Source of the DNA: a virus
Virus record (IMG/VR): IMGVR_UViG_3300037961_003440
Span: 30,365-94,364 of that record
Strand: one strand, 5' to 3'
DNA: 64,000 nt
This document shows positions 33,525 to 53,830 of the stretch, piece by piece. Numbering within the stretch: the first letter of the stretch is position 1; each line of letters opens with the position of its first letter. Below the pieces are notes generated by a model that worked only from the letters and a program-made list of their open reading frames with translations, was not told where the DNA came from and made no database searches. A program made the position numbers and the translations under genes.

Positions 33525-34577
33525 TTAATATAATCCATGAGGTTTTGCTTCTAATTGTCCTGCTTGTGTAACTCTACAAAATGTTGCTTTAGTTTGAAAA
33601 TCAGTAATAGTATGTGCGCCTACATAACTCATAGAGGATTTAATTCCATCAGATATATCATTAACTATTCTTCTTACCTTTCCTTTATATGGTGTAATTT
33701 TAGAATTACCTTCTACATTTTTAGTTTCTTCCCCTCGTGCTGTTTTAGAATCAATAGAAGCAGAACCTTGATACTTTTTGTATAATTGTTCATTAGGCCA
33801 TTGACCCATTTTAGATATAATTCCCGGAGTTTCTTTTGTTCCTGCAAATAAAGAACCTACCATAACTGCATCAGCACCAAGAGCAATTGCTTTAGGAATA
33901 TCTCCTACTGTTTTACAACCGCCATCAGCAACAATATATGGTATTTCATCTAAGTCTAAAACTTCGTTTATATGATATGCAATATCTAATAATGCTGTTG
34001 CTTGAGGAACACCAACACCTGCTCTAATTCTTGTTTCACACATAGAACCATTACCAATTCCTACTCTTAAAGAATCAGCACCTGCTTCAATTAATCTTTC
34101 AGCCGCACCTTTAGTTACAATATTTCCAGCCATTACATGAATGTCCTCAAATTCTTCTTTAATATAAGCAATCATTTCACCGACTAATTCATGGTCGCCA
34201 TGTGCAACATCAATACAAACACCTTGAATATTAGTATAACCTACTAATGAATCAAATCTATCTTTACCTTTTTGACCTACACCAACTGCCGCAATATATT
34301 GTCCTCTTACTTCTGATTCAATATCATAACATAATGCTACTTGTTCTTTAATAGATTGAAATCTATGTAATACACCAATACCACCAAGTTTTGCTAATTC
34401 AATACACATTTCTGTACCGCATACCGTGTCCATTGGTGAAGCAATTAATGGTACATTTAAATTAAAATTACCAAATTCTACCGATGTATCACAATGACTT
34501 CTTGATTTTATATCCGACATATATGGTATAATACTAATATCATCATAAGTTAAACTATCTCTTTCTTCTATTTTCAA
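33525..34577 (-). CDS. GuaB family enzyme (IMP dehydrogenase/GMP reductase-like) without CBS domains
   Basis: 350 residues, starting at TTG six bases after GGGAGAG. Family motifs: [11 protein letters not shown], then [11 protein letters not shown] with the catalytic Cys (about residue 180), followed by [13 protein letters not shown] as in IMP dehydrogenases. The end ([34 protein letters not shown]) also matches IMP dehydrogenase. The CBS pair is absent, as in GMP reductase, and the RGMGS flap is altered to QGSAS. It would act on IMP, XMP or GMP; which reaction cannot be read from the sequence. Confidence 0.8.
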
Positions 34578-41749: not shown

Positions 41750-42016
41750 TTATTCTTCCTCTCGGAAATCATCAAGTGTAGTCTGTCCTGTTTCTTCAAA
41801 TGGTAGGGGTTTATTTAGTTCATCTACTACTGCTGTAAATAAATGTTTAGGTAATACACCCTCAATTCTATAAACCATTAATTTACCAACACATCTTAAA
41901 TGATAATATGATTCTTCACCATTTGGTAGTAATTGTATTAAACCTTCTTCTACACCATTAAATTCTTCTCTACAATAATGACACTTTTTTCCTTGTTCTA
42001 TTTTTCTTATTTTCAT
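41750..42016 (-). CDS. Small zinc protein with PCNA-binding-like tail
   Basis: 88 residues, coupled to the ligase stop by ATGA. The N-terminus has CHYCREEF (C-x2-C) and a later HLRC, together a four-ligand zinc site. The C-terminus FEETGQTTLDDFREEE contains Q-x-x-L-x-x-F, a PIP-box-like motif very similar to the end of the viral PolB. It may be recruited to the viral clamp together with the ligase. Confidence 0.6.
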   Translation of the reverse strand: MKIRKIEQGKKCHYCREEFNGVEEGLIQLLPNGEESYYHLRCVGKLMVYRIEGVLPKHLFTAVVDELNKPLPFEETGQTTLDDFREEE

Positions 42017-43506
42017 AGTTTCACCTCTAATTCTTTTATTTGAGTTGGTTCAGATTTATCATCTCGGTGCTTAACATATCTTGGGAATCTTAAACCATAT
42101 TCACCAGATTCGTTTTTAGTAATCATATCACCCTTTACCTCAATAATAATATCTTCCCTATCTTGTTGGTTATACAGTCGGGTTAAAAATATTATGTCCT
42201 CTTCTGTAAAACCACTACCTACTCTACCAAAAGAAACTAATTCATCTTCATCTTTAATAGCAATATCAAATGAAGAATAATATCCTGTTAATCTTCCTGA
42301 ACCTGCATGGGCATCAGTAATTATAACATCAATATCAACCATAGGAGGTTTATATTTTAACCAACCTTTACTTCTTGCACCAAAATCATAAGACATAGAT
42401 GGGTCTTTTACAATAACACCTTCAAATCCTGCTTCAATTGCTTCATTATAAACTTCTATAAATTCTTCTTGAGTATTGACCTCTACCATATTAGCAATTA
42501 ATTCATTACCAAAGTGCATTTTTAGTGTTTCCCAACGGGTATCTAAATCATCTTCAAATACAGGTTGTCCACCATACATTAAACAATCAAACAATTTAAT
42601 AGTTACAGGATTACGATAAATTACTTCTTCGGTCTTACCGTGAATGCGACTCATAATATTCTTAAATTCAGCAGGATTACCTTCTGTATCAACAGGATAA
42701 ATTTCACCATCAACAATCCAATCCACAGGGTCTGAGTTTTTACCAATTAAAGGTATCAAATCATTTTCAAACTTAGATGTAATATCATCACCTTTACGAT
42801 TAAATATTTTAATACCATCTGCATTTTGATGAACCTGCGCTCTAATTCCGTCATATTTATAATCACAAAATCTACGATTTCTTACTGTAAAGTTTCCACC
42901 TTTTGCTAACATTGGTTTCATATAATTACCTGCCTCCGGTACATATACCAAAGCGTTATTATTAACACATTGAGATATAACATCCTCAATAGGCAAAAAA
43001 CTTACAGCCTTTTTAATATCACTTGCAGGTATTCCATATGTCTTTTGTAGTATTTTCTTAACGACATTTGTGCCGCATTTGTTTCTTGTTTGGTTTAACA
43101 AAAATGCTGCTAACCATTTTTTACCTAAAGCATCTACATTATCAAAGCAATACATAATTTGATTAAATACAGAATCCATATTTTCACCATGTAAAGCAGT
43201 ATAAACTTCTGCTACTGTAATATCATTATTTCCATCAGCCTCATCAAATAATGTTTCAATTGCTTCTCCTAATCCGCCATGTATTTCTACTAAGGTTTCT
43301 ATTGTTTCACTATCTACATTATATTTATCAGCGACTCTTTTAATAAGACCCGTTTCACCTGCACCATTATTAGGATAATTTCTTGCCCATAGGTTTAACA
43401 TTTCTTCAACATTATCCATTGGATTATCATCAAAATACTTTACCATTTGTGTAGGTGTCATATCTATAAATTCTTCATTAATTCTTGCAAAATCGTTCCA
43501 CATCAT
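42013..43506 (-). CDS. lig: ATP-dependent DNA ligase
   Basis: 497 residues from ATG after GGAGAGTGAAAAAA. The adenylation motif KYDGIRAQ is near residue 220. Motifs III-V follow (IVDGEIYPVD; GFEGVIVKDP; WLKYKPP). The N-terminal ~200 residues form the DNA-binding domain of archaeal ligases. It would seal Okazaki fragments. The gene is followed by a zinc protein with a PIP-like tail. Confidence 0.92.
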   Translation of the reverse strand: MMWNDFARINEEFIDMTPTQMVKYFDDNPMDNVEEMLNLWARNYPNNGAGETGLIKRVADKYNVDSETIETLVEIHGGLGEAIETLFDEADGNNDITVAEVYTALHGENMDSVFNQIMYCFDNVDALGKKWLAAFLLNQTRNKCGTNVVKKILQKTYGIPASDIKKAVSFLPIEDVISQCVNNNALVYVPEAGNYMKPMLAKGGNFTVRNRRFCDYKYDGIRAQVHQNADGIKIFNRKGDDITSKFENDLIPLIGKNSDPVDWIVDGEIYPVDTEGNPAEFKNIMSRIHGKTEEVIYRNPVTIKLFDCLMYGGQPVFEDDLDTRWETLKMHFGNELIANMVEVNTQEEFIEVYNEAIEAGFEGVIVKDPSMSYDFGARSKGWLKYKPPMVDIDVIITDAHAGSGRLTGYYSSFDIAIKDEDELVSFGRVGSGFTEEDIIFLTRLYNQQDREDIIIEVKGDMITKNESGEYGLRFPRYVKHRDDKSEPTQIKELEVKL

Positions 43507-43511
43507 TTTTT

Positions 43512-43595
43512 TCACTCTCCTATAAATTCACCGATAAACGGCATTACACTAAACTTATCTAATATACTTATCAAATATATTTCAAAAAACATCAT
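43512..43595 (-). CDS. 27-residue putative micropeptide
   Basis: ATGATG overlaps the upstream TGA and the frame runs to a TGA just before the ligase start; preceding bases are GGGAGAGTGAAGA. The peptide is hydrophobic (MMFFEIYLISILDKFSVMPF). Coupling at both ends is the only support. Confidence 0.35.
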   Translation of the reverse strand: MMFFEIYLISILDKFSVMPFIGEFIGE

Positions 43596-44054: not shown

Positions 44055-44464
44055 TTATTTACACTCTCCTTGTTGTAAAAATATTTTGGATTTTCAACTT
44101 CTTTAAGGTTCAAGGCAATCCAAACCGAACCACTTAGAGAATCAACTCTAATTACTTCATAGTTTTCTGTAACAATATATGTTTCTACATTTGGCGTTTT
44201 ACCATACAATCTTTGTATTTCTTGTGATACCGATTGAATATTATCAACAATATATTTTATTATTAACGGCATTTGTATTTCCACATATGGTTCAGAATCT
44301 AATTCATATATCCCTGTTTGATTACAAACATTACAATTTTGTCCATTACATATAGGGCATTTAATTTCTAAATTAGATAATACAGGAAACCTTACTCTTC
44401 GGACTCGTCTAATTCCATTAGATTCGTCTTGCTTAGAAATTGCTTTTCTTTGCTTTTCCACCAT
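44042..44464 (-). CDS. Zinc-knuckle protein of unknown function
   Basis: 140 residues from ATG after GGAGAGAATGAA. A basic N-terminus (GIRRVRRVRFP) leads to CPICNGQNCNVCNQTG, a compact four-Cys zinc site. The C-terminal part is alpha/beta (YIVTENYEVIRVDSLSGSVW). It overlaps the JAMM protease gene by 73 bases, an unusually long overlap here, so translation is probably linked to it. Confidence 0.6.
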   Translation of the reverse strand: MVEKQRKAISKQDESNGIRRVRRVRFPVLSNLEIKCPICNGQNCNVCNQTGIYELDSEPYVEIQMPLIIKYIVDNIQSVSQEIQRLYGKTPNVETYIVTENYEVIRVDSLSGSVWIALNLKEVENPKYFYNKESVNKWLA

Positions 44465-44817
44465 TTCATTCTCTCCTTATCACCAATTACAATTGCTGAA
44501 TTAAGAATAGGTAATTGAGTATTAATAGTATTCCAATCTGTATCACTAAAATAAGCCGCCCCAAATGGGTGAGTATGAATCCAGCATTTAAGCGGTATTC
44601 TCATACCAACAACTGATTCATCTTCGTAATCAACAAAACTTCTTGTACCTTTACTAATAAACAAATTATCATTACTGTCTACTATAACTGATACTTCTTT
44701 TTCATTTAGTATTTCTGTTGATAATTCCCATATAGCATTTAAGAAAACCTCACTTTCATAATTACTTTCTTCTTCATCAAACATTTCTTTTAATTTATCT
44801 TTTGCTTCTGTCCACAT
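44392..44817 (-). CDS. JAB/JAMM metalloprotease (deubiquitinase-like)
   Basis: 141 residues after GGTGATGAATA. The zinc motif is complete: HTHPFGAAYFSDTD at about 80-93 (H-x-H-P-x6-S-x-x-D), with a Glu near residue 40 as possible general acid. The family cleaves isopeptide or peptide bonds after a modifier's C-terminal Gly-Gly, or trims modifier tails. An E1-like gene lies 0.9 kb away and a Gly-Gly-ending beta-grasp gene is in the same operon direction. It starts by TAATG coupling. Confidence 0.85.
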   Translation of the reverse strand: MWTEAKDKLKEMFDEEESNYESEVFLNAIWELSTEILNEKEVSVIVDSNDNLFISKGTRSFVDYEDESVVGMRIPLKCWIHTHPFGAAYFSDTDWNTINTQLPILNSAIVIGDKERMKWWKSKEKQFLSKTNLMELDESEE

Positions 44818-45008
44818 TATTCATCACCTTCATATTCAAATCCTAATTGTTCTTGTCTTTCTTTTCCACAATCAAAAGGGTTAGAGTGGATTTGACCACT
44901 AATCCTTGAATTGATTATTTTTATATTTGGTTCACCTTCTTTAATTAGTTTCCCACATAATCTACATTTTGCATTTCCTGTTCCTACACTTAATATCCAT
45001 TCTGTCAT
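44817..45008 (-). CDS. Small zinc finger, PARP-like pattern
   Basis: 63 residues, starting at TAATG with the upstream stop. CRLCGKLIKEGEPNIKI then HSNPFDC resembles the C-x2-C...H...C arrangement of PARP-type fingers. It is coupled by TAATG to the JAMM protease gene, so both are made together. A recruiting role for the protease is possible but unproven. Confidence 0.5.
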   Translation of the reverse strand: MTEWILSVGTGNAKCRLCGKLIKEGEPNIKIINSRISGQIHSNPFDCGKERQEQLGFEYEGDE

Positions 45009-45541
45009 TATACACACATCCATTTTGGTTTATCTCTTTTCTTATATTCACTTCTCCAACCTTTCCATTGTTTATCACCCATGTAAAAATTACGATAAGC
45101 CAACAAACTATTTCCTTCTACTTTATATTCATCAGGCATACATTGAGGCGGTTCTTGAAATCCATTATCTTTTAATCTTGATGGTGGTTTTCTCAATAAC
45201 TCTCTCAATTTACTATCCGATTCATGTACTTTACCGTAGCGATAAGTATATTCATCACATAATGCTTCAAATACATCATACATAAAATTGTAATGTTGTA
45301 CAGATTCTCTAACCCAAATTGTTGTAGGGTGATTCAAATGAGCAATCTTATACAGTTTTTGCATATCTTTTGGTAATCCTACAAATACATATTTACCATC
45401 TACTTCATGATAATATTGGTCTACAACCCTATGAGTCGTAGATAGCATTTGTGCATATTCTAAAATCATCTTAATACAATGTGCATTATTATGACTCTTT
45501 GCAATTTCTTTAGCGGTTTCTTCTATGTAAAAGAAATTCAT
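45008..45541 (-). CDS. Conserved phage protein of unknown function
   Basis: 177 residues. It belongs by pattern to a family seen in cyanophages and other large phages: HCIKMILEYAQMLSTTHRV, HPTTIWVRESVQHY, DEYTYRYGKVHE, MPDEYK and a late YRNFYMGDK. Many invariant His, Arg, Glu and Tyr residues suggest an enzyme, but no reaction is known. It lies between the E1-like and JAMM genes. Confidence 0.7.
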   Translation of the reverse strand: MNFFYIEETAKEIAKSHNNAHCIKMILEYAQMLSTTHRVVDQYYHEVDGKYVFVGLPKDMQKLYKIAHLNHPTTIWVRESVQHYNFMYDVFEALCDEYTYRYGKVHESDSKLRELLRKPPSRLKDNGFQEPPQCMPDEYKVEGNSLLAYRNFYMGDKQWKGWRSEYKKRDKPKWMCV

Positions 45542-45630
45542 TCATCTTCCTCCATTATGTCAGGGTACAAAACTCTCCCAATACAATACAATATAATCAT
45601 TCCCATAATTCCTATAAATAATGTTCTCAT
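45538..45630 (-). CDS. 30-residue membrane peptide
   Basis: Frame bounded by TAATG at the start and ATGA at the end. Sequence MRTLFIGIMGMIILYCIGR plus an acidic tail has one membrane helix. Coupling on both sides is the main evidence. Confidence 0.4.
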   Translation of the reverse strand: MRTLFIGIMGMIILYCIGRVLYPDIMEEDE

Positions 45631-45713
45631 TAATCATCACCTTCATCGCAACAATCATCATTTAATGTAGAAACTCCTACACCTATCCCAAATAACCAAA
45701 ATAATAATCCCAC
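45630..45713 (-). CDS. 27-residue membrane peptide
   Basis: GTG start after GGGTGATTAAT, the same spacing as at 49282. One hydrophobic stretch (GLLFWLFGIGVGVSTL) is followed by an acidic tail with two Cys (DDCCDEGDD). It ends in a TAATG overlap. The start could also be GTG at 45722. Confidence 0.4.
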   Translation of the reverse strand: MGLLFWLFGIGVGVSTLNDDCCDEGDD

Positions 45714-45718
45714 ATTAA

Positions 45719-46276
45719 TCACCCATTTATCCTAAAATGCTTTTCAACATAATCTCCATTAAACCATCTTTGAATCCATTGAGCACCATAACCTGCAATT
45801 ACAACTTGCATAAAATTAACTCCTTCAGGTTCTCCTTCCCAAGAATCACCTTGACAACTAAAACTACCATCTGGGCCACTTGTAAATACATTATATAATT
45901 CAGGTTTTTCTAAATGTGAAATCATAGCGGCATTTCTCGCTTGCGCTCTAAGGTCTAACCATTTAACTTTAGAATTATACATTGTTCTTCTAATATCTAA
46001 ATTGTCGGCACAACAAACAACTAAATCATATCCTTTTAATTGTCCTGCTGTTAATACAGGATAAGGTTGTGCATTAACATTATACCTTTTAGACATAGCA
46101 TTAACTTTCTTTTCATCTAAATCTTCTTTGGTAAAGTTTTGATATGTTAGATTCTTTTCCTCTACAATATCAGGGTCATAAACTGTTATATCATATATCC
46201 CTACTTTATCCAATAGTGGTATTAGAAAACTTCCAATTCCACCTGCGCCTATCAACATTACTTTTCTCTTACTCAT
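45719..46276 (-). CDS. E1/ThiF-like ubiquitin-activating enzyme, minimal form
   Basis: 185 residues. The N-terminal Rossmann motif VMLIGAGGIGS (6-16) is followed by ITVYDPDIVEEKNLTYQNF, the ATP-binding signature of ThiF/MoeB/E1 enzymes. DNLDIRR follows at about 93. A late Cys (GSFSCQGDSW) is a candidate acceptor. The CxxC zinc pairs and C-terminal part of ThiF are absent, so this is a short adenylation domain. It would adenylate the C-terminal Gly of a ubiquitin-like protein such as 53609-53830. Confidence 0.8.
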   Translation of the reverse strand: MSKRKVMLIGAGGIGSFLIPLLDKVGIYDITVYDPDIVEEKNLTYQNFTKEDLDEKKVNAMSKRYNVNAQPYPVLTAGQLKGYDLVVCCADNLDIRRTMYNSKVKWLDLRAQARNAAMISHLEKPELYNVFTSGPDGSFSCQGDSWEGEPEGVNFMQVVIAGYGAQWIQRWFNGDYVEKHFRING

Positions 46277-46898
46277 TTTTTCTCACTTTCCTTAAGTTCC
46301 TTTTTAATCTCGGCAAACTAACTCCGAATTTTTTACACACTTCTTTTTGAGTATATGGTGTGTGTTCATATACATATGCGGCAATAATACCTCTTGTTAG
46401 AGTCTGCGATTTATTCCAAAATTTACACGCATCGCTAACTTCTTTAGAATTGATTTCCATATTAAATAAAAACTCGTCAATATCATTTATACCAAACACT
46501 CCAGAATTAGAATAATGTCTTGCAATCTTTTTTGCTAATCTTGATGCTCTTGATATTTTACAACCTAAGAATTTACAATACTTTCGCAAATTTGTCGGTT
46601 TATTTAAATCTCTCATTGTGTAATATAATATAGCGACAGCCCTTTCAGCACTATCATAACTATAATATAAATTAGTATAAGATATATACTTGTCATTTTT
46701 TAATACTTCTTCCTTATCTTCTATGTCATATTCATTTAATAACATTGTTAAATCATTTATCATTACCTTATTATTAGGTAATATATCATTAACCTCATAT
46801 ATTCTATAAGCCTGAATACATCCACAAACTGAACAAACAGGGAGATTAATTTCTTTGTTTAAGTTCAGGTGCTTCGCTTGACAATTTACACACGGCAT
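46269..46898 (-). CDS. tfb: Transcription factor B (TFIIB-like)
   Basis: 209 residues. An N-terminal zinc ribbon is formed by CVNC (3-6) and CSVC (22-25). Two cyclin-like repeats follow, ending in TRGIIAAYVYEHTPYTQKEVCKKFGVSLP, the helix-turn-helix that contacts the BRE in archaeal TFB. It is shorter than host TFBs (about 300). With host TBP it could direct RNA polymerase to viral promoters. It overlaps the upstream gene by 53 bases. Confidence 0.75.
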   Translation of the reverse strand: MPCVNCQAKHLNLNKEINLPVCSVCGCIQAYRIYEVNDILPNNKVMINDLTMLLNEYDIEDKEEVLKNDKYISYTNLYYSYDSAERAVAILYYTMRDLNKPTNLRKYCKFLGCKISRASRLAKKIARHYSNSGVFGINDIDEFLFNMEINSKEVSDACKFWNKSQTLTRGIIAAYVYEHTPYTQKEVCKKFGVSLPRLKRNLRKVRKNE

Positions 46899-48093
46899 CC
46901 CAATCTAACCTAATATCAGTTTGTTCTTTTTCATGCCCATTAATATATCTACTAACTGTTGAAACTAATTTTACTAACATAGTATCATTCATACAAGCAA
47001 ATGCTCTTGCTGCAAATTGGTCACCAACAGATGCACCACTTGATAAATTATCAATACAAATTGGCCCTGCCCAATAAGGTTGTTTATCGGTATTATTTAT
47101 TACATTAGGTATTTCAAGATTAACATTTTGTGTAGTTTGTGTAGTTAGTACATATGTGCTAACATCTTGAATACCTCTTTTAGATTGATTATCAACAATC
47201 ATCCAATCAGCAAATTTACCTCTAACAAACATAGCCAAAACTTCTTGACCATTTCTTGTAAAAGTGCCTTTAGTAACATTATCGTATTTATTAACCATAT
47301 CATTAAACAATTCCATAGCCCTTTGTTCAGCCAAATCACTTCTTCTATTTTGCTTCAAAAATTCTTTCATAATTTTAATCTGTGCAGGAGTGGCTTTTTC
47401 ACCAACAGTTCTAAACCATAATTCAGCAGGTGAAACCATATACCACTTACCCGTTCTTTTATTATAAAGATAGGAATTGATAAATGTATTCAAATCTCTT
47501 GTACTAATTTCACCCCATACACCACTACTAATTTCAAGTGCATAGTTATCTTCAGCGATTCTCATCAAAGACAAACGAGTATTTCTTTCTTTGACACCTT
47601 CTGTTGTTCTTTCAAAGAATTTATACGGCACTCTATTTTCCATAGCATAAGATACATTTTCAGGAACATAAATACATCTAAAGAAATAATCATCTAACGC
47701 TTCTTGTGCTTCTTCTCCTTCGCCATTAATATAAGCAGAACGCATTATTGTTCTACTAATTGCTTTCATAATAGTATCAAGGTTAGCAAATTCACCGTTA
47801 GCCATATATCTATTGCCGACTTTACGCATATTAATTAGATATTTGCAATTACCAATTCTCATCATTATACTTTTCTTTGGGTCAGACCTAACAATAGAAA
47901 CGATACCTATTGTGCTTTTTAATGCACTATGTATGCTTTCAATTGTTGGCTCTTTAGAAATATTATTTCTTTGTCTTTGTGCCCAAATATCAATATTTCT
48001 ATTTCTTGGTATTTGTCTTGAAACTAATTTAGTTTCTATTATTGCCGTTCTATCATCGCTTGCGTGTCTTATTCTAAAAATTATTTCTCCCAT
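46846..48093 (-). CDS. Unknown 415-residue protein
   Basis: Starts after AGAGGTAATTAAA. Mixed alpha/beta with a basic N-terminus (RQIPRNRNIDIWAQRQRNN), a middle stretch FFRCIYVPENVSYAMENRVP, and a helical block around 230-275 (GEKATPAQIKIMKEFLKQN). No catalytic motif stands out. It lies between TFB and another large unknown gene and overlaps TFB. Confidence 0.55.
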   Translation of the reverse strand: MGEIIFRIRHASDDRTAIIETKLVSRQIPRNRNIDIWAQRQRNNISKEPTIESIHSALKSTIGIVSIVRSDPKKSIMMRIGNCKYLINMRKVGNRYMANGEFANLDTIMKAISRTIMRSAYINGEGEEAQEALDDYFFRCIYVPENVSYAMENRVPYKFFERTTEGVKERNTRLSLMRIAEDNYALEISSGVWGEISTRDLNTFINSYLYNKRTGKWYMVSPAELWFRTVGEKATPAQIKIMKEFLKQNRRSDLAEQRAMELFNDMVNKYDNVTKGTFTRNGQEVLAMFVRGKFADWMIVDNQSKRGIQDVSTYVLTTQTTQNVNLEIPNVINNTDKQPYWAGPICIDNLSSGASVGDQFAARAFACMNDTMLVKLVSTVSRYINGHEKEQTDIRLDWDAVCKLSSEAPELKQRN

Positions 48094-48094
48094 T

Positions 48095-49282
48095 TTAATT
48101 ACCTCTTAATTCTGTTATCATTTCACTTGCTTCAGTTTTTGTTAGACCATCTCTAACTGTTCCACCTAATCTCTCAATATATTTTATTTGTTTTAGTGTA
48201 GCGGGTTGATTGGGATTAGGTGCAATAATGTTAAGTAAAGCATTTAATTGTTTAACGGATAGTGGTTTTCTGTTGATTATTCTATTTGACATATCGTTTA
48301 GAAATGTTTTCTCCCAAGCATTTTTACCTTCTTCAACTGAAAATACAGGTATATCATAATATTCACAGGCTTCTTGTAAAGCATTATTATCATATTCTGT
48401 TTTTGTTTCAGCACGAATTCTTTTTGCTTCTTCAATCATTCGCTGTCTACTTTCTTCTGCTAATCTATCTTGTTCTGATTGTTGTTCACGAATATATGCT
48501 ATTCTTTGTTCAACCTCTTCTCTCTTTTCATCTAATTGTTTTTCAAACTTTTGTGTTTTAGCAAACAATAACTGAACATCTCTCCATAGTTTTTCATTAG
48601 GATAACCTCTTGTTTTAATTTGCGCTTTAGGATTATCTGGGTGATTCCATCTCCAAACAACAGAAGCCATTTTACCTAAAGAACCCGATTTAGTTTTAGC
48701 AATTACATAGTGAGGTTCATATCTCTTAGTTTTATAATCATAATATTTACCCTTTGAACGAACATTAATTCTAATATCTAAATTCTTAACTTCATTAAAT
48801 AATTCATTCCAATCATCACCGTGTTCTTTCCACCACCATTCGGCTTTCATAGTTTTAACGGATTCTTTCATCCATTCAATAATTTTTTCTTCGGTAATTG
48901 CATCTTCAGGTATTCCTTTATTTTCTTTTAGATGTCTAATAATCATCCAATTAGTAATATGTTCACTACCAAGAATTTCTAATATTCCATTTTCAGTATT
49001 TTCTACTTCAAAATGCCAAGCAATAGGATGTCCACATACACAATAATTAGGGTGATTATCACAATGAGGTTCAGGTAATTCAAGATGTTCTGTATGAGCA
49101 TATCTTAAAGGTCTATACCAAACATTACCTGTTGCTCTCCATTCATGTTTTACTTCTTCCCAATCATCAGATACACTAATTTCAGTTAGTCTATTAATTA
49201 ATGCTTGATTTAATGCACCGCTTTTTAATTCAATATTATGGTTTTCTTCACCTTCAATATTATATTCTATAAAATCTTCCAC
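48095..49282 (-). CDS. Zinc and coiled-coil protein with shared C-terminal module
   Basis: 395 residues from GTG at 49282, after GGAGTGATTAAT; the ATG there is out of frame. A zinc part CDNHPNYCVCGHPIAWHF, then ILEILGSEHITNW, matches a phage pattern of C-x-C-G-H...G-S. A coiled coil spans about 240-310. The final ~40 residues (QIKYIERLGGTVRDGLTKTE) repeat the end of the HNH protein at 30638. Nucleic-acid related function is likely. Confidence 0.6.
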   Translation of the reverse strand: MEDFIEYNIEGEENHNIELKSGALNQALINRLTEISVSDDWEEVKHEWRATGNVWYRPLRYAHTEHLELPEPHCDNHPNYCVCGHPIAWHFEVENTENGILEILGSEHITNWMIIRHLKENKGIPEDAITEEKIIEWMKESVKTMKAEWWWKEHGDDWNELFNEVKNLDIRINVRSKGKYYDYKTKRYEPHYVIAKTKSGSLGKMASVVWRWNHPDNPKAQIKTRGYPNEKLWRDVQLLFAKTQKFEKQLDEKREEVEQRIAYIREQQSEQDRLAEESRQRMIEEAKRIRAETKTEYDNNALQEACEYYDIPVFSVEEGKNAWEKTFLNDMSNRIINRKPLSVKQLNALLNIIAPNPNQPATLKQIKYIERLGGTVRDGLTKTEASEMITELRGN

Positions 49283-49287
49283 ATTAA

Positions 49288-49530
49288 TCACTCCATACCT
49301 GCATTAAACAATTGCTGCTCTAAATATCCATCACACATTTGATTTAGTTTTTCTGCTAAACTTTGTGTAATTCCCGGAATAGTACTTCTGTTTAAACTAA
49401 GCCATATAGTATGTGCCCTATTCAATACAATAATACATCCATTATCATGTTCATTCTTTTTAATTACCACAGGTGGTAATTCTTCGCTTTCTATCAATCT
49501 AAATTCTACTGCTTTCTTTTTATTCATCAT
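49288..49530 (-). CDS. Unknown 80-residue protein
   Basis: ATG (MMNKKKAVEFRLI) after GGAGTGATAAAA. Beta-strands at the N-terminus (CIIVLNRAHTIWLSLN) and a C-terminal helix. Coupled to the next gene: its stop lies within that gene's ribosome site. Confidence 0.5.
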   Translation of the reverse strand: MMNKKKAVEFRLIESEELPPVVIKKNEHDNGCIIVLNRAHTIWLSLNRSTIPGITQSLAEKLNQMCDGYLEQQLFNAGME

Positions 49531-49535
49531 TTTTA

Positions 49536-49751
49536 TCACTCCATATTCATTAAATGTGTTAAGGGGTCTGTTTTCATCAATTGTTTGCTGAGTAAAATAT
49601 GAGGAAACTTAGATAATAACATTGGTATTACCTTGTTCCAATCAATTTCACTTTCATACTGCTTTGTCCAAACGCTACCGTTTGATTTCAAAGAAGTTAT
49701 CCTTATCACTTTATGCTTTTCTTCATTTTCATAATCCTTGCTTTCGCTCAT
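49536..49751 (-). CDS. Unknown 71-residue protein
   Basis: Acidic-basic N-terminus, then beta (KVIRITSLKSNGSVWTKQY) and a helix. It is the first gene after the gap behind the ribonucleotide reductase. AT-rich sequence (AATTTAAAAAAAAATAAG) about 30 bases upstream could be a promoter giving a short leader. Confidence 0.5.
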   Translation of the reverse strand: MSESKDYENEEKHKVIRITSLKSNGSVWTKQYESEIDWNKVIPMLLSKFPHILLSKQLMKTDPLTHLMNME

Positions 49752-49798
49752 TCTATCACATCATTTTTTTCTTATTTTTTTTTAAATTCTTGTTTTAC

Positions 49799-49826
49799 CG
49801 GAAGTTTTCGGAAGGAATCCGAAAAT
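49799..49826. other. Hairpin in gap after ribonucleotide reductase
   Basis: TTTTCGGA-AGGAA-TCCGAAAA is a perfect 8-bp inverted repeat in the 111-base gap 49752-49862. On the plus strand TTTTAGTATTTTAAG follows; on the minus strand no T run follows. It may slow transcription after the reductase or protect its 3' end. Confidence 0.5.
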
Positions 49827-49862
49827 TTTAGTATTTTAAGAATTTATATGACACAAAATGTA

Positions 49863-51722
49863 TCATATTTCACAAAGGCCACCTGCACACGCAATCTCGC
49901 CTTGTAAATCTGTATTATCTTCTGTTTCAATTACTTTGGTTAAGTCTATTTGCTTAAGTCCTGCTATCATTTGGTCGTATTGTAAGCGTGTAATTGATTC
50001 AAAAGGTGCTTGGACATAACTACCACCATCATAAGGCAATACAGACAAACCATTGTAGTATTTTCTATTATTCCACATCCAATTTCCTACTTCTTCCCAT
50101 TCCCATTTTCTAATTGAAATTGTAGCAGAAACATTGTGAGTATTCATACCTTTTGTATGACCTTTATTGACCCAATTTGTTGCTACATATTTTACTCTTT
50201 CAAGTAATTGAATTGCATCTTCACTTCTTGTTGTAGAACCTTCCGGTGCTTTTTGAGGTAAAGAAATTACAGCAGTATCATGTGGTCTAAATTGTTCATC
50301 TTCAATTATAGAAGGATGATTATTAACTAAATAATTATAAATTGCTTCATTCTTTCCTACTCTAATTCTTCTAATATAATATTCGTCATGCCAAGCATGA
50401 ATACCACTTGAAGTTCCTAAAACACAAGATGTAGTTCCAGCAGGTTTAACACAAGTAATTCTTGCCGCAGGATTTATACCAATTTGTTCTGCAATTAATT
50501 TATTAACAGACTTTGATAATTCTGCCGCTTGTTGTAAATCTAATCCTTTTAATTTATTAGAAGCAATACCTGTCATACTAACTCCAAGTAAAGCATCTTT
50601 TTCTGTTGTAGTTTTCCATATTTCTCTAAGATAATGAAAATCAGTATAACCTGCTTGTAATGTTGCTAATACAGTTGCCGCAGAAACTCTTGCATTTAAA
50701 TCATCTTGGTCAATAACATCACTTACATTTATTTCTGTTAAATTACAAAACTGATTTGGTCTCAGGGCTATTTCGCAACAAGGATTTGTTCCCCAATCTT
50801 TATCATTTGAAAAATATATTCCGGGTTCTCCTGAACCTGATTCTTTAATTCTCTTCCATAATTTCATGAAGTAATCTTTATCAATTCTGCTTCTAATAAG
50901 AACGGCTGAATTATTAGCCCTACCTCTTTGTGGATTTAACTCCCACCAATTACCGGATTTAGCAGTTATCATATCCATATCATCTGCACTAAATAAAGAA
51001 ATTAAAGCGGCTCGTCTAATACCACCTGCTAAAACAGCATCAGCAATATGACACATAATATCATGTGCTTGGATAGGAGTAATTTTTTCACCCGAAGTTA
51101 TATCTTTTAGTATTCCTTCTACTTTAACTAAACATTCTTTTAACGGTTGAGGGCCGGGTGCTTTTCCACCTGATGTAATTAATCTTTCACCTTTTGCTCT
51201 AATATCTGAATAATCAAAATCAGGTGTTGATGAAAGTCTACCAAAATATGATTTAACTAAAACCTTAATTGCATCAGCCCAACCTTCAATAGAATCTCCA
51301 ATAAGATACCTTCTTTTTCTATTAGGGTTAGGGTGTTGAATTACAGGTAATTTGTCAATATGATTATATTGTACTGAATAACCAACGCCTGTTCCACCAA
51401 GAAGTAAAAACATTGATTCCCAAAAAGCAGCAATATTATCAACAGGCATATAAGCACAGTTATAAATTCTATTAGGTGCTACTTCTATTGGCTTACCACC
51501 AAATTGTAGACTTCTCATTGAAGGTAAAACTTTCTTAGGTTGTACAAAGTTAGTATAAACATCCATTATTTGTTCTTCTAATTTAGGGTATTTTTTAATA
51601 TGCATCATCATATTTCTTGTGCATAATTCTTCCCATGTTTCCCTTCTTTCTTTTTGTTCTACATATTTTGCATATTTCATATGTACAGTTATATCGCTTA
51701 AAATTTCACTTGCTTTATTCAT
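49863..51722 (-). CDS. nrdJ: Class II (B12-dependent) ribonucleotide reductase
   Basis: 619 residues from ATG after AGGAAGTGGAATA, with TAATG coupling. Active-site region NPCCEIALRPNQFCNLTEIN (about 319) gives the radical-site Cys and Asn-x-Cys-x-Glu. LAGGIRRAALISLF and VKPAGTTSCVLGTSSGIH are also family motifs. The C-terminus CAGGLCEI supplies the redox Cys pair. It reduces ribonucleotides without oxygen or a second subunit, feeding viral DNA synthesis. Confidence 0.9.
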   Translation of the reverse strand: MNKASEILSDITVHMKYAKYVEQKERRETWEELCTRNMMMHIKKYPKLEEQIMDVYTNFVQPKKVLPSMRSLQFGGKPIEVAPNRIYNCAYMPVDNIAAFWESMFLLLGGTGVGYSVQYNHIDKLPVIQHPNPNRKRRYLIGDSIEGWADAIKVLVKSYFGRLSSTPDFDYSDIRAKGERLITSGGKAPGPQPLKECLVKVEGILKDITSGEKITPIQAHDIMCHIADAVLAGGIRRAALISLFSADDMDMITAKSGNWWELNPQRGRANNSAVLIRSRIDKDYFMKLWKRIKESGSGEPGIYFSNDKDWGTNPCCEIALRPNQFCNLTEINVSDVIDQDDLNARVSAATVLATLQAGYTDFHYLREIWKTTTEKDALLGVSMTGIASNKLKGLDLQQAAELSKSVNKLIAEQIGINPAARITCVKPAGTTSCVLGTSSGIHAWHDEYYIRRIRVGKNEAIYNYLVNNHPSIIEDEQFRPHDTAVISLPQKAPEGSTTRSEDAIQLLERVKYVATNWVNKGHTKGMNTHNVSATISIRKWEWEEVGNWMWNNRKYYNGLSVLPYDGGSYVQAPFESITRLQYDQMIAGLKQIDLTKVIETEDNTDLQGEIACAGGLCEI

Positions 51723-52165
51723 TATTCCACTTCCTTTCTTATTGGTAAATTTTCCCATTTGTTAAACTGCGCCAACAGTTTGTTTTCTTTTTTAGTAACT
51801 ACTATCCAATCCATATCTTGAACCCAAGTCCAATTTTTCATGTCTGCAATTACTTTATCTCCGTATATTCTAACTAATTGGCCTATTTCCCAAAATTCTT
51901 TATTATCATATTTTATAATGGGATGTCCACACGCTTGAATTATACTTTTTCGGCTTTCTGCAATTATCTGACCATCACTATAAAAGTTAGGATTAGAACA
52001 GGTAATTTTTAAGTCATTAAATTTTCTATGAAAATTTGCTAATGTTAATGACTCTTTTATCTTCCAACCTGATGCTTTTAAATCACTTTCAAAAATGCGA
52101 CTTGGTAGGAAGTTTTCATCTTCTTCGTCTATATTATATTCGTTGTAAAAATTTTTTATATTCAT
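51722..52165 (-). CDS. Unknown protein upstream of ribonucleotide reductase
   Basis: 147 residues from ATG after ATGGTGATAAT. Mixed alpha/beta with a Cys-His stretch (IIQACGHPIIKYDNKEFWEI) and Trp-rich DMKNWTWVQDMDWIVV. The stop overlaps the reductase start (TAATG). Not recognised. Confidence 0.5.
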   Translation of the reverse strand: MNIKNFYNEYNIDEEDENFLPSRIFESDLKASGWKIKESLTLANFHRKFNDLKITCSNPNFYSDGQIIAESRKSIIQACGHPIIKYDNKEFWEIGQLVRIYGDKVIADMKNWTWVQDMDWIVVTKKENKLLAQFNKWENLPIRKEVE

Positions 52166-52260
52166 ATTATCACCATATATATTACCCATTATGCTAATTT
52201 CCTTGATTTATCCAAAAAAATTTGTTTTGATGGGCCGTTCCACTTCATTTTTTCAAAAAA
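52166..52260 (-). promoter_or_regulatory. Gap with possible promoter before the reductase pair
   Basis: 95 bases without a gene. On the plus strand TTTATCCAAAAAAA occurs here and TTTATCCAAAAAAC again at about 56047 in the origin-like region. AT-rich sequence is compatible with a promoter for the reductase unit; no clear TATA box is seen. Confidence 0.3.
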
Positions 52261-52557
52261 TTACTCTATTTCTTTAGATATTAAATCGTGATATTTTACT
52301 GATTTGTTATTTTGTGTTTCAAAACAGTCATCACACATACAAAAAACAATTCTCTTGTCTGAAAATTCTCTATAATGAAAGTCATGCCTACTAAGATATG
52401 TAGCATAAGCCATTAATTCTACGCCACCTATCAAAGATTTTGTCTTTTTGTCTGTTGATAATTTTTTATCGCAAGTTAAGCAGGTTCTTTTGCTATCACT
52501 TGGTTGCATTTCCTTCTTTATCCACTTTTCTTTATTTGGTATCATTGTTGTACTCAT
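52261..52557 (-). CDS. Zinc-ribbon protein
   Basis: 98 residues starting at ATGA overlap. CLTCDKKL (C-x2-C) and a later CMCDDC supply four or more Cys ligands, separated by a hydrophobic middle (GGVELMAYATYLSRHDF). Function unknown. Confidence 0.6.
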   Translation of the reverse strand: MSTTMIPNKEKWIKKEMQPSDSKRTCLTCDKKLSTDKKTKSLIGGVELMAYATYLSRHDFHYREFSDKRIVFCMCDDCFETQNNKSVKYHDLISKEIE

Positions 52558-52784
52558 AATTCTTCACCATCTTTTCTAAAAACTTTTCTTACTGAGGACT
52601 TAACCTCGTGATAAACCCCTTTTGATTTAGGGCTTCCTGATACAGTAATTAATTTTACAGTATCGGTAGCAGGATTTTTTACCCGTATCTTAATATGTTT
52701 GCTAATTTGAAACTCTACGATTTCTACACCTAAAGTTTCTATTGCTTTCATCATCTTCTTAATCTCTTTTCCGTTCATAACCAT
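52554..52784 (-). CDS. HicA-like dsRBD-fold phage protein
   Basis: 77 residues from ATG (MVMNGKEIKK), shortly after the upstream stop. The order helix (KEIKKMMKAIETLG), strands (VEIVEFQISKHIKIRV), strand (LITVSGSPKS) and helix with Arg resembles phage HicA-like proteins, with the conserved KH in strand 2. In toxin-antitoxin pairs HicA cleaves mRNA; here no HicB partner is evident. Confidence 0.45.
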   Translation of the reverse strand: MVMNGKEIKKMMKAIETLGVEIVEFQISKHIKIRVKNPATDTVKLITVSGSPKSKGVYHEVKSSVRKVFRKDGEEL

Positions 52785-52788
52785 CACA

Positions 52789-53100
52789 TCATTGTATCGT
52801 TTTACTATAACATATGTTATATTTCTTAATATACGCCAAAAGAGTTGCTTCATGTTCCATATTTCTATCGCTATAATCTAATGAAAAATATTTTTCAACA
52901 AATTCTTCCAGAAATCCACCAAGTATTTCTTTGGGCAATATCATTTCCATTTCTTCAAACTGATTTAAAAATGTAGGTAATATTCCTTCTTCTTCTCTCA
53001 TTTTATGTACTTCTCTAAGCCAAGTTTCATGAGCACGAATTTCTTTCCATGTAGGTTTTAACATTTTTAGAAATATCCAAAAGTCTTTTAAAATATTCAT
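52789..53100 (-). CDS. Unknown helical protein
   Basis: 103 residues, coupled by ATGA to the upstream gene. Entirely helical and acidic (IRAHETWLREVHKMREEEG; FLEEFVEKYFSLDYSDR). Not recognised. Confidence 0.5.
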   Translation of the reverse strand: MNILKDFWIFLKMLKPTWKEIRAHETWLREVHKMREEEGILPTFLNQFEEMEMILPKEILGGFLEEFVEKYFSLDYSDRNMEHEATLLAYIKKYNICYSKTIQ

Positions 53101-53471
53101 TCAAAAGCCGCCTCTTTCTTAAAATAATAAATCATATCTTTGGCATTTCTAAATCTTTCTTGAGCAGATTTACCATCTTTCCAAGATATATTATAAGAAG
53201 CATAACGATTTAATTTGTTAATTAGGGTTGATTCATACATTGACTGTTGTGCAACCATATCATCTTTAGCATATTGTTCAGCATATTCTTTTGATTCTCT
53301 TTTCATATCTTTTAATTGAGTATTCCAACCCTTTTGTAAAATAGGGTATCTAATAAAACTCATAGGTGAGGGATAATTACTATAACTGTAATAATCTTTC
53401 TTTTTCTCAACCAAGTAGTCTATAATTTCAATAAATTCTTCTGCGCCTGTATCTTTTCTCCAATAACTCAT
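53097..53471 (-). CDS. Unknown helical protein after the Ubl terminator
   Basis: 124 residues from ATG (MSYWRKDTG). Helical with many Tyr and charged residues, including KKDYYSYSNYPSPMSFIRYP. It starts 11 bases beyond the T run of the terminator, so it is read from readthrough or a promoter inside the hairpin region. Not recognised. Confidence 0.5.
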   Translation of the reverse strand: MSYWRKDTGAEEFIEIIDYLVEKKKDYYSYSNYPSPMSFIRYPILQKGWNTQLKDMKRESKEYAEQYAKDDMVAQQSMYESTLINKLNRYASYNISWKDGKSAQERFRNAKDMIYYFKKEAAFE

Positions 53472-53481
53472 CACTATCAAT

Positions 53482-53516
53482 AAAAAAATCCCCCCATTAT
53501 TTTAAGTGGCGGGGGG
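53482..53516 (-). terminator. Terminator of the ubiquitin-like gene
   Basis: On the minus strand CCCCCC (53516-53511) pairs with GGGGGG (53495-53490), followed by AT and seven T (53488-53482). GGGGGG/CCCCCC runs are rare in this AT-rich sequence. It isolates the ubiquitin-like gene from the following genes. Confidence 0.75.
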
Positions 53517-53538
53517 AAACCACTATCCTATGAAAAAT

Positions 53539-53586
53539 AGTTTTATCAGTAAAACTACTAAAAACTGTATGCCATTAGTCGCATAC
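53539..53586 (-). ncRNA. Tandem hairpins in the 3' region of the ubiquitin-like gene
   Basis: Two perfect inverted repeats lie before the terminator: GTATGC-8-GCATAC (53567-53586) and AGTTTTA-TCAG-TAAAACT (53539-53556). With the GC terminator this gives three successive hairpins in about 105 untranslated bases. They may stabilise the mRNA or be a small structured RNA. Confidence 0.45.
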
Positions 53587-53608
53587 TAACTAACAGAATT
53601 GACCTGTA

Positions 53609-53830
53609 TTAATCGTCATCACTAATACAAGAACCGCCAACAATTGCTTGAGTTAGTACGACTTCATCAACCGCATTAAAATCAATGTTAGCAATATCTT
53701 CTCTTGAAACCAATTCACCATCAACATATGCCCAATGTGTAGGGTGGTCAATTATTTGGTCAAGTGCTTCAGTTGCACTTAGAGTTAATTCTGTATGTCC
53801 TGTTTCATTCAATATTGTTATCTTTACCAT
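53609..53830 (-). CDS. Ubiquitin-like beta-grasp protein with Gly-Gly and removable tail
   Basis: 73 residues after GGAAGTGAAATAA. The order strand (MVKITILNET), strand (HTELTLSA), helix (TEALDQIIDHPTH), strand (WAYVDGELVS) and last strand DEVVLTQAIVGG matches MoaD/ThiS/SAMP-type ubiquitin-like proteins. DEVVLTQ...GG corresponds to the DEV.L.PP..GG ending of MoaD. Unlike sulfur carriers it continues SCISDDD after Gly-Gly, so a protease must trim it before E1 activation. A JAMM protease and an E1-like enzyme are encoded 9 and 7 kb away. It has its own terminator. Confidence 0.7.
   Translation of the reverse strand: MVKITILNETGHTELTLSATEALDQIIDHPTHWAYVDGELVSREDIANIDFNAVDEVVLTQAIVGGSCISDDD

Follow-up and report, generated by a model that had tools for sequence, protein, structure and literature searches.

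A putative viral ubiquitin-like pathway, consisting of a ubiquitin-like modifier (Ubl), a short E1-like adenylating enzyme (E1) and a JAMM/JAB metalloprotease (JAMM), was analysed in a 64,000-base stretch of DNA (the window), which corresponds to bases 30365-94364 of the 94,364-base viral record IMGVR_UViG_3300037961_003440. The three genes are a core feature of the virus family to which this record belongs, and they are interpreted here, with a probability somewhat above even, as a set for Ubl activation, conjugation and deconjugation among the core genes of an archaeal tailed-virus family, very probably the magroviruses. A previous annotation made without database searches (the sequence-only reading) had placed the open reading frames (ORFs) for Ubl, E1 and JAMM at positions 53609-53830, 45719-46276 and 44392-44817 of the window, respectively, all on the minus strand, and these positions were confirmed.

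The Ubl ORF (73 aa) is a genuine gene and not a chance reading frame, because its ratio of nonsynonymous to synonymous substitution rates (dN/dS) is low (0.06-0.14 versus four relatives, at synonymous distances (dS) of up to 1.2, and 0.16 versus a fifth) and relatives are encoded in at least 131 viral stretches. The protein ends with VVLTQAIVGG, the last two residues being Gly65-Gly66, followed by the 7-residue tail SCISDDD. The motif A-[IVL]-V-G-G was present near the C-terminus in 86/86 distinct Ubl ORFs, and the length of the tail after Gly-Gly among these ORFs was 0 (6 ORFs), 1 (22 ORFs), 2 (55 ORFs), or 4, 8 or 9 residues (the remainder); the 7-aa tail of the window virus is unusually long for a family in which 1-2 residues are usual. 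Invariant residues followed by a free tail form the pattern expected of a processed Ubl precursor, and the C-terminus is the strongest evidence for a modifier. A second near-invariant motif, HPTHW, was also found. An AlphaFold2 model obtained with 20 homologues was of moderate confidence (predicted local distance difference test (pLDDT), 78.3; predicted template modelling score (pTM), 0.59) and showed the strand order beta-beta-alpha-beta-beta-beta, with the residues past Gly-Gly disordered. The best Foldseek matches of this model were mostly ubiquitin, ThiS, the archaeal Ubl Mth1743, SUMO and ISG15. The MoaD/ThiS-like fold put forward in the sequence-only reading was supported, as the two findings that it named as refuting, a confident fold other than beta-grasp and a lack of Gly-Gly conservation, were not obtained, and the protein is predicted to be a ThiS/MoaD-like beta-grasp protein on the basis of fold and motif. 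Two other candidate relationships were rejected: a match to the protease inhibitor PinA (PF10465, E=5e-4 as the best of 4/20 matching members, below the cut-off) was taken as chance, and tblastn against named phages gave two chance matches, including one in Maribacter phage Panino, the neighbourhood of which contains no annotated E1 or JAB gene.

The E1-like protein (185 aa) consists of a ThiF/MoeB-type Rossmann domain and hardly anything else. It was matched by Pfam ThiF at 5e-16, above the cut-off, and by NCBIfam ThiF families at 1e-12, and its scores were far under all NCBIfam equivalog cut-offs (TIGR02356: 47.6 bits versus a cut-off of 275). The GxGGxGS loop and the downstream Asp, Lys and Asp of the ThiF Rossmann domain are present, and the glycine-loop residues G10, G12, G13 and G15 together with D34, D36, K57, D91 and C141 were invariant in 28 E1 sequences; the earlier proposal of a short E1/ThiF-type adenylating enzyme was supported. 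The solved relatives by PDB profile included UBA5, MccB, Cap2, MoeB, Uba4 and ThiF, and BubCD was also matched. No CxxC zinc motif was found in the viral E1-like sequence. Cys141 (S-C-Q), located in the C-terminal third, is shared by distant E1 relatives encoded on contigs of Methanoperedens and Pacearchaeota, in which no recognisable viral-type Ubl or JAMM was found. On the Methanoperedens contigs (L194:6994-11174, L195:7770-11080 and L193:3869-4432), the related short E1 has as neighbours one protein of 718 aa and another of 166 aa that ends with GKGG, and in L194 and L193 a LAGLIDADG-type gene directly precedes E1. Identification of the 166-aa protein as a Ubl was unsupported by hhalign.

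The JAMM protein (141 aa) contains HTHPFGAAYFSDTD, which corresponds to HxHP-x6-SxxD, and the complete motif reported in the sequence-only reading proved to be part of a fully conserved catalytic set, as E41, H81, H83, P84, S91 and D94 were invariant across 23 JAMM sequences. Pfam Prok-JAB matched the window protein at E=2e-4 (21.7 bits, just under the gathering score of 25) and 14/23 family members at E<0.01. The nearest solved structures by family profile were AMSH-LP, STAMBP, Sst2 and the Rpn11-like 6fjv, with the AMSH-type at 1e-4, and all of these are ubiquitin-removing isopeptidases. Since JAMM and its motif are retained in viruses whose Ubl already ends exactly at Gly-Gly (L125/G018, L136/G021 and L143/G023), the enzyme probably does more than tail trimming. 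No match to the viral JAMM was obtained in named phages by tblastn.

The distribution of the three genes was determined in 42 long records picked via Ubl or E1. E1 was present in 42/42, JAMM in 42/42 and Ubl in 41/42, so that all three occur together in 41 records and the check on co-occurrence set in the sequence-only reading did not refute it. The sole record lacking Ubl is a contig starting 3.7 kb before E1; the usual position of Ubl is 2.8-7.6 kb upstream of E1. The genes lie on one strand in the order Ubl-E1-JAMM in 37 of the 38 records checked, the exception being a contig cut between Ubl and E1. A search using DNA polymerase only returned eight records longer than 80 kb, all of which (8/8) were within the 42-record set. 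In HVTV-1, a distant relative by capsid protein, Ubl, E1 and JAMM are all absent. The fitting chemistry of the parts and this joint absence, a single comparison, suggest that the three proteins act on one another.

Two records of this search are unusual in themselves. The contig NZMJ01000151.1 (L192), titled Maricaulis sp. MAG, shares its E1 and JAMM genes with the marine viruses and for this reason is probably a piece of a magrovirus that ended up in a bacterial bin. In the record G017 (that of L122; 184733 bases), which has twice the usual length, E1, Ubl and JAMM are each present twice, and the record may represent two joined viral genomes.

In the favoured mechanism, the primary product is a Ubl precursor in which a short tail follows Gly65-Gly66, as seen in its sequence. 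The viral JAMM would cut off this tail, as suggested by the intact catalytic set and by the conserved Gly-Gly with a variable tail, and the E1-like enzyme would adenylate Gly66 using ATP, as its ThiF domain suggests. In the next and weakest step, lysines on proteins of the virus or the host would receive the activated Ubl, whether straight from E1, in the way known for archaeal SAMPs, or through an unrecognised carrier, for which a 415-aa protein encoded upstream of E1 (see below) is a candidate. Finally, JAMM could undo the modification. The location of these genes in the replication/early cluster makes a function in takeover or replication more likely than one in tail assembly. The roles suggested in the sequence-only reading, namely labelling of virion or host proteins, steering of proteasomes and a block on host conjugation, are conceivable.

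Several observations weigh against conjugation or against the assignments on which it depends. The Foldseek scores of the Ubl model were weak (best E, 0.016; 0.016-0.1 over the first few dozen matches) and the TM-scores of its neighbours moderate, mostly 0.4-0.55, the highest being that of ThiS (0.50/0.55). Among the family assignments of the sequence-only reading, profile searches supported ThiF clearly and JAB weakly, below the cut-off, and gave nothing for Ubl, with no ThiS, MoaD or ubiquitin match in Pfam, NCBIfam or PDB sequence profiles, although recognition by such profiles does not define the fold. In the E1 family, the Arg of NLxRQ is replaced by an invariant Tyr45, the position of Cys141 differs from that of the usual E1 catalytic Cys, and the usual catalytic-Cys context is missing. 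No E2 or E3 was identified, and the earlier caution that direct transfer from E1 and sulfur transfer are both open stands. Moreover, the closest resemblance of Ubl is to ThiS and that of E1 to ThiF.

The last point leads to the main alternative, a sulfur-carrier function, which is distinctly possible though on balance doubtful. JAMM would trim the precursor, E1 would adenylate Gly66, host sulfur donors would form the thiocarboxylate, and Ubl would deliver sulfur to tRNA, a nucleotide, cysteine or methionine, or an Fe-S/cofactor pathway, in the manner of QbsE/QbsD, HcyS/HcyD/HcyF, CysO/Mec and TtuB/TtuC. The Qbs, Hcy and CysO/Mec systems are bacterial sulfur-carrier sets in which a ThiS-like protein with a short tail past Gly-Gly, a ThiF-type E1 and a Gly-Gly-exposing JAMM are combined, the same trio as in the virus; the one- or two-residue Ubl tails resemble those of QbsE and HcyS. 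These sets lie beside sulfur or siderophore genes in bacterial chromosomes, whereas the viral set lies among replication genes and its E1 is much shorter. ThiS is the best named sulfur-carrier likeness of Ubl, and E1 is best matched by ThiF/MoeB models. Sulfur clusters with ThiS, JAB and E1 are known generally (PMC1779556), and Thermus TtuB is both a modifier and a sulfur carrier, deletion of the JAMM lowering tRNA thiouridine (PMC3980101). Host enzymes could supply the sulfur; they would have to, and the host would also have to accept it, as phosphoadenosine phosphosulfate (PAPS) reductase and rhodanese accompanied the viral set in 0/30 relatives in a search limited to these two sulfur families, and no other sulfur-handling genes were recognised in the window. 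This result, the deubiquitinase-type JAMM with isopeptidases as its nearest solved relatives, and the retention of JAMM with a Gly-Gly-ending Ubl favour conjugation over sulfur transfer.

The deubiquitinase-like JAMM and the truncated E1 without the canonical Arg would also suit interference or mimicry, in which the three viral proteins would act as decoys within the host SAMP/proteasome pathway and complete no conjugation cycle of their own, JAMM stripping host conjugates and Ubl or the short E1 poisoning the host E1. This is quite unlikely, as the adenylation-site residues and the Gly-Gly of Ubl are fully conserved, as in active enzymes. It is very improbable that the set represents no shared pathway at all but three core genes travelling together in one virus family, with the ThiS-like protein acting in virion assembly and the ThiF-like enzyme and JAMM each acting on other substrates. 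Core genes of whatever function would be expected to occur together within a virus family, so that co-occurrence by itself is no proof of a shared pathway, Ubl is separated from E1 by the distance given above, and the related E1 of Methanoperedens and Pacearchaeota occurs without recognisable partners of the viral type; however, the chemistry of the three parts fits exactly, all three are missing together from HVTV-1, and an adjacent ThiF/JAB pair is present independently in Crassvirales phages.

This Crassvirales pair (e.g., crAss001 gp76/gp77, MH675552) resembles the viral set in that ThiF-like and JAB-like genes are adjacent in a replication block, near genes for uracil-DNA glycosylase and B12-dependent ribonucleotide reductase, and its E1 is the closest named-phage match to the viral E1 (~28-36% identity over 100 aa). 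It differs in the long N-terminal extension of its E1 and in its bacterial hosts, and no Ubl homologous to the viral Ubl family was detected in Crassvirales. An IVGG in the N-terminus of crAss001 gp76 was regarded as coincidence, being absent from other crAss-like E1s. The pair (crAss001 L159:6259-8657; L198-L201) is annotated as 'thiamine biosynthesis protein' and 'metalloprotease', and gp78, the gene before it, has a conserved Y-M-H-S-H...C-x-G motif. It is possible that the Crassvirales pair represents a phage Ubl-type pathway that has been overlooked.

Among cellular and other phage systems, the BilABCD/BubABCD and Cap2-Cap3 defence systems likewise combine a Ubl or target with E1 and JAB, and the viral E1 profile matches Cap2 and BubCD; these systems, however, have recognised E2s and act in anti-phage defence, whereas the genes described here are owned by a virus and no E2 was recognised. 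In Caldiarchaeum subterraneum, the tail of an archaeal ubiquitin precursor is trimmed by a JAMM, and the viral JAMM profile matches the Rpn11-like 6fjv; its Ub-E1-E2-E3-Rpn11 cluster differs in being cellular and in including an E2 and a RING E3. Precursors of the haloarchaeal SAMPs are not known to have a tail, unlike the viral Ubl. The SAMP/UbaA/HvJAMM1 system is similar to the viral set in being archaeal, in E1-only conjugation without E2 or E3 and in removal of the modifier by JAMM (PMC4443979; PMC4895103), but UbaA is a full-size E1, whereas the viral E1 has neither zinc motifs nor the NLxRQ Arg. TAPI/TAPK of lambda- and T1-like phages represent a phage-encoded Ubl and JAB protease that function in tail assembly without an E1 (PMC1779556), whereas the present viral set includes an E1 and is located away from the tail genes.

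A possible fourth part is the 415-aa protein (46846-48093, minus strand), a constant partner upstream of E1 that was found in 28/28 loci. A near-invariant G-[PS]-I-C-I-D motif (G-P-I-C-I-D-N in the window) lies toward its C-terminus, with Cys346 and Asp348 invariant. The AlphaFold2 model had a pLDDT of 80; whole-model Foldseek gave no E2 and nothing significant, and no profile link to E2s was obtained in Pfam, NCBIfam, PHROGs or PDB profiles. Identification as an E2, suggested by the ICID motif and an alpha-beta4-Cys-alpha order, was therefore not adopted, as Foldseek, PDB profiles and PHROGs were unsupportive. A relationship to the 718-aa Methanoperedens neighbour received no support either, since shuffled sequences scored equally. 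The 415-aa protein is considered a candidate thioester carrier or conjugation partner, as a lead only. It is unlikely that magroviruses, abundant archaeal viruses of the ocean, encode as a core function a full conjugation cascade of their own, in which this protein, as a new type of carrier or ligase for Ubl that depends on Cys, would link the short E1 to targets in the virus or the host.

Between the 415-aa gene and E1 lies the gene for a zinc-ribbon protein (46269-46898, minus strand), probably TFB-like, for which only a weak zinc-ribbon Pfam match was obtained; homologues were found in 21/28 loci with C-x-C...C-x-C-G conserved. This protein is outside the core chemistry and a possible functional neighbour. 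Proteasomes of Haloferax degrade TBP2 that carries SAMP (PMC4895103), and by analogy the TFB-like gene and the Ubl set might exchange host transcription factors, an attractive but unsupported idea. An 83-aa protein (49288-49539, minus strand) is kept with Ubl, E1 and JAMM in 28/28 loci, and a 398-aa protein (48095-49291, minus strand) with a C/H-rich motif (ClCGh.ivyHFEi.NTe) is a conserved neighbour in 25/28. Within this gene block, both families are nearly as constant as E1, Ubl and JAMM, and both might also belong to the Ubl system.

The identity of the virus was judged from gene content, capsid protein kinship and published description, part of the gene-content calls being made by eye from sequence. 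The gene content, which includes an HK97-like capsid protein, a large terminase, a family B polymerase, a B12-type ribonucleotide reductase, an ATP-dependent ligase and genes resembling those for PCNA, RFC and primase, is that of an archaeal tailed virus. The major capsid protein (MCP) has its closest counterparts in HVTV-1, HCTV-1 and HCTV-5, all haloviruses, and the record is 94 kb long, with ~30% GC and two divergent gene clusters. Magrovirales are described as having 90-110 kb, low GC, PolB, RFC-S, PCNA, primase, ligase, TFB and two divergent gene clusters (PMC10768690), and are linked to marine Poseidoniales archaea as distant relatives of Druskaviridae (PMC10768690; PMC12999244). This description fits the record in size, GC, gene content and HVTV/HCTV-like MCP; the record very probably belongs to the magroviruses, and the hosts of the family are probably marine archaea.

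Additional features were observed in these genomes. ATP-dependent DNA ligase motifs (KYDGIRAQ and KYDGMRIQ) occur in two distinct proteins, encoded at 42013-43515 of the window and at L161:10199-12700, one in the replication cluster and the other in the structural cluster. A viral gene of the IMP dehydrogenase/GMP reductase family (Pfam IMPDH, 2.7e-91) is located at 33525-34577. An N-terminal motif of the M-x-W-x-x-I-L-K type is common to several structural-module proteins of this virus (L160 (G000:1-16000): 12421, 6927, 11796, 5339, 3708 and 2687), with the variants MSWISILKAD, MTWKNILKED, MTWKDILKMP, MNWTTILKRK, ISWKDILKSN and NWEDIIQKK, and is possibly a virion-targeting or prohead signal.

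Prokaryotic Ubl/E1/JAB sets are already known as a kind, and the occurrence in archaeal viruses would be what is new. Ubiquitin, ThiF and JAB were unmentioned in the searchable literature on magroviruses and archaeal Caudoviricetes, a provisional result that excludes two central papers, and the set is provisionally regarded as previously undescribed in archaeal viruses. If the proposed interpretation is true, a ubiquitin-like pathway encoded by the viruses themselves is among the core functions of a widespread marine group of archaeal viruses, and viruses may tag proteins, or carry sulfur, as cells do. The conserved Gly-Gly remnant makes the pathway directly testable by proteomics. Ubl, E1 and JAMM would constitute a natural minimal system for studying E1-only conjugation and would offer a handle on whether sulfur carriers or modifiers arose first. 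For the viruses themselves, the set would provide a possible route for redirecting archaeal proteasomes or transcription factors.

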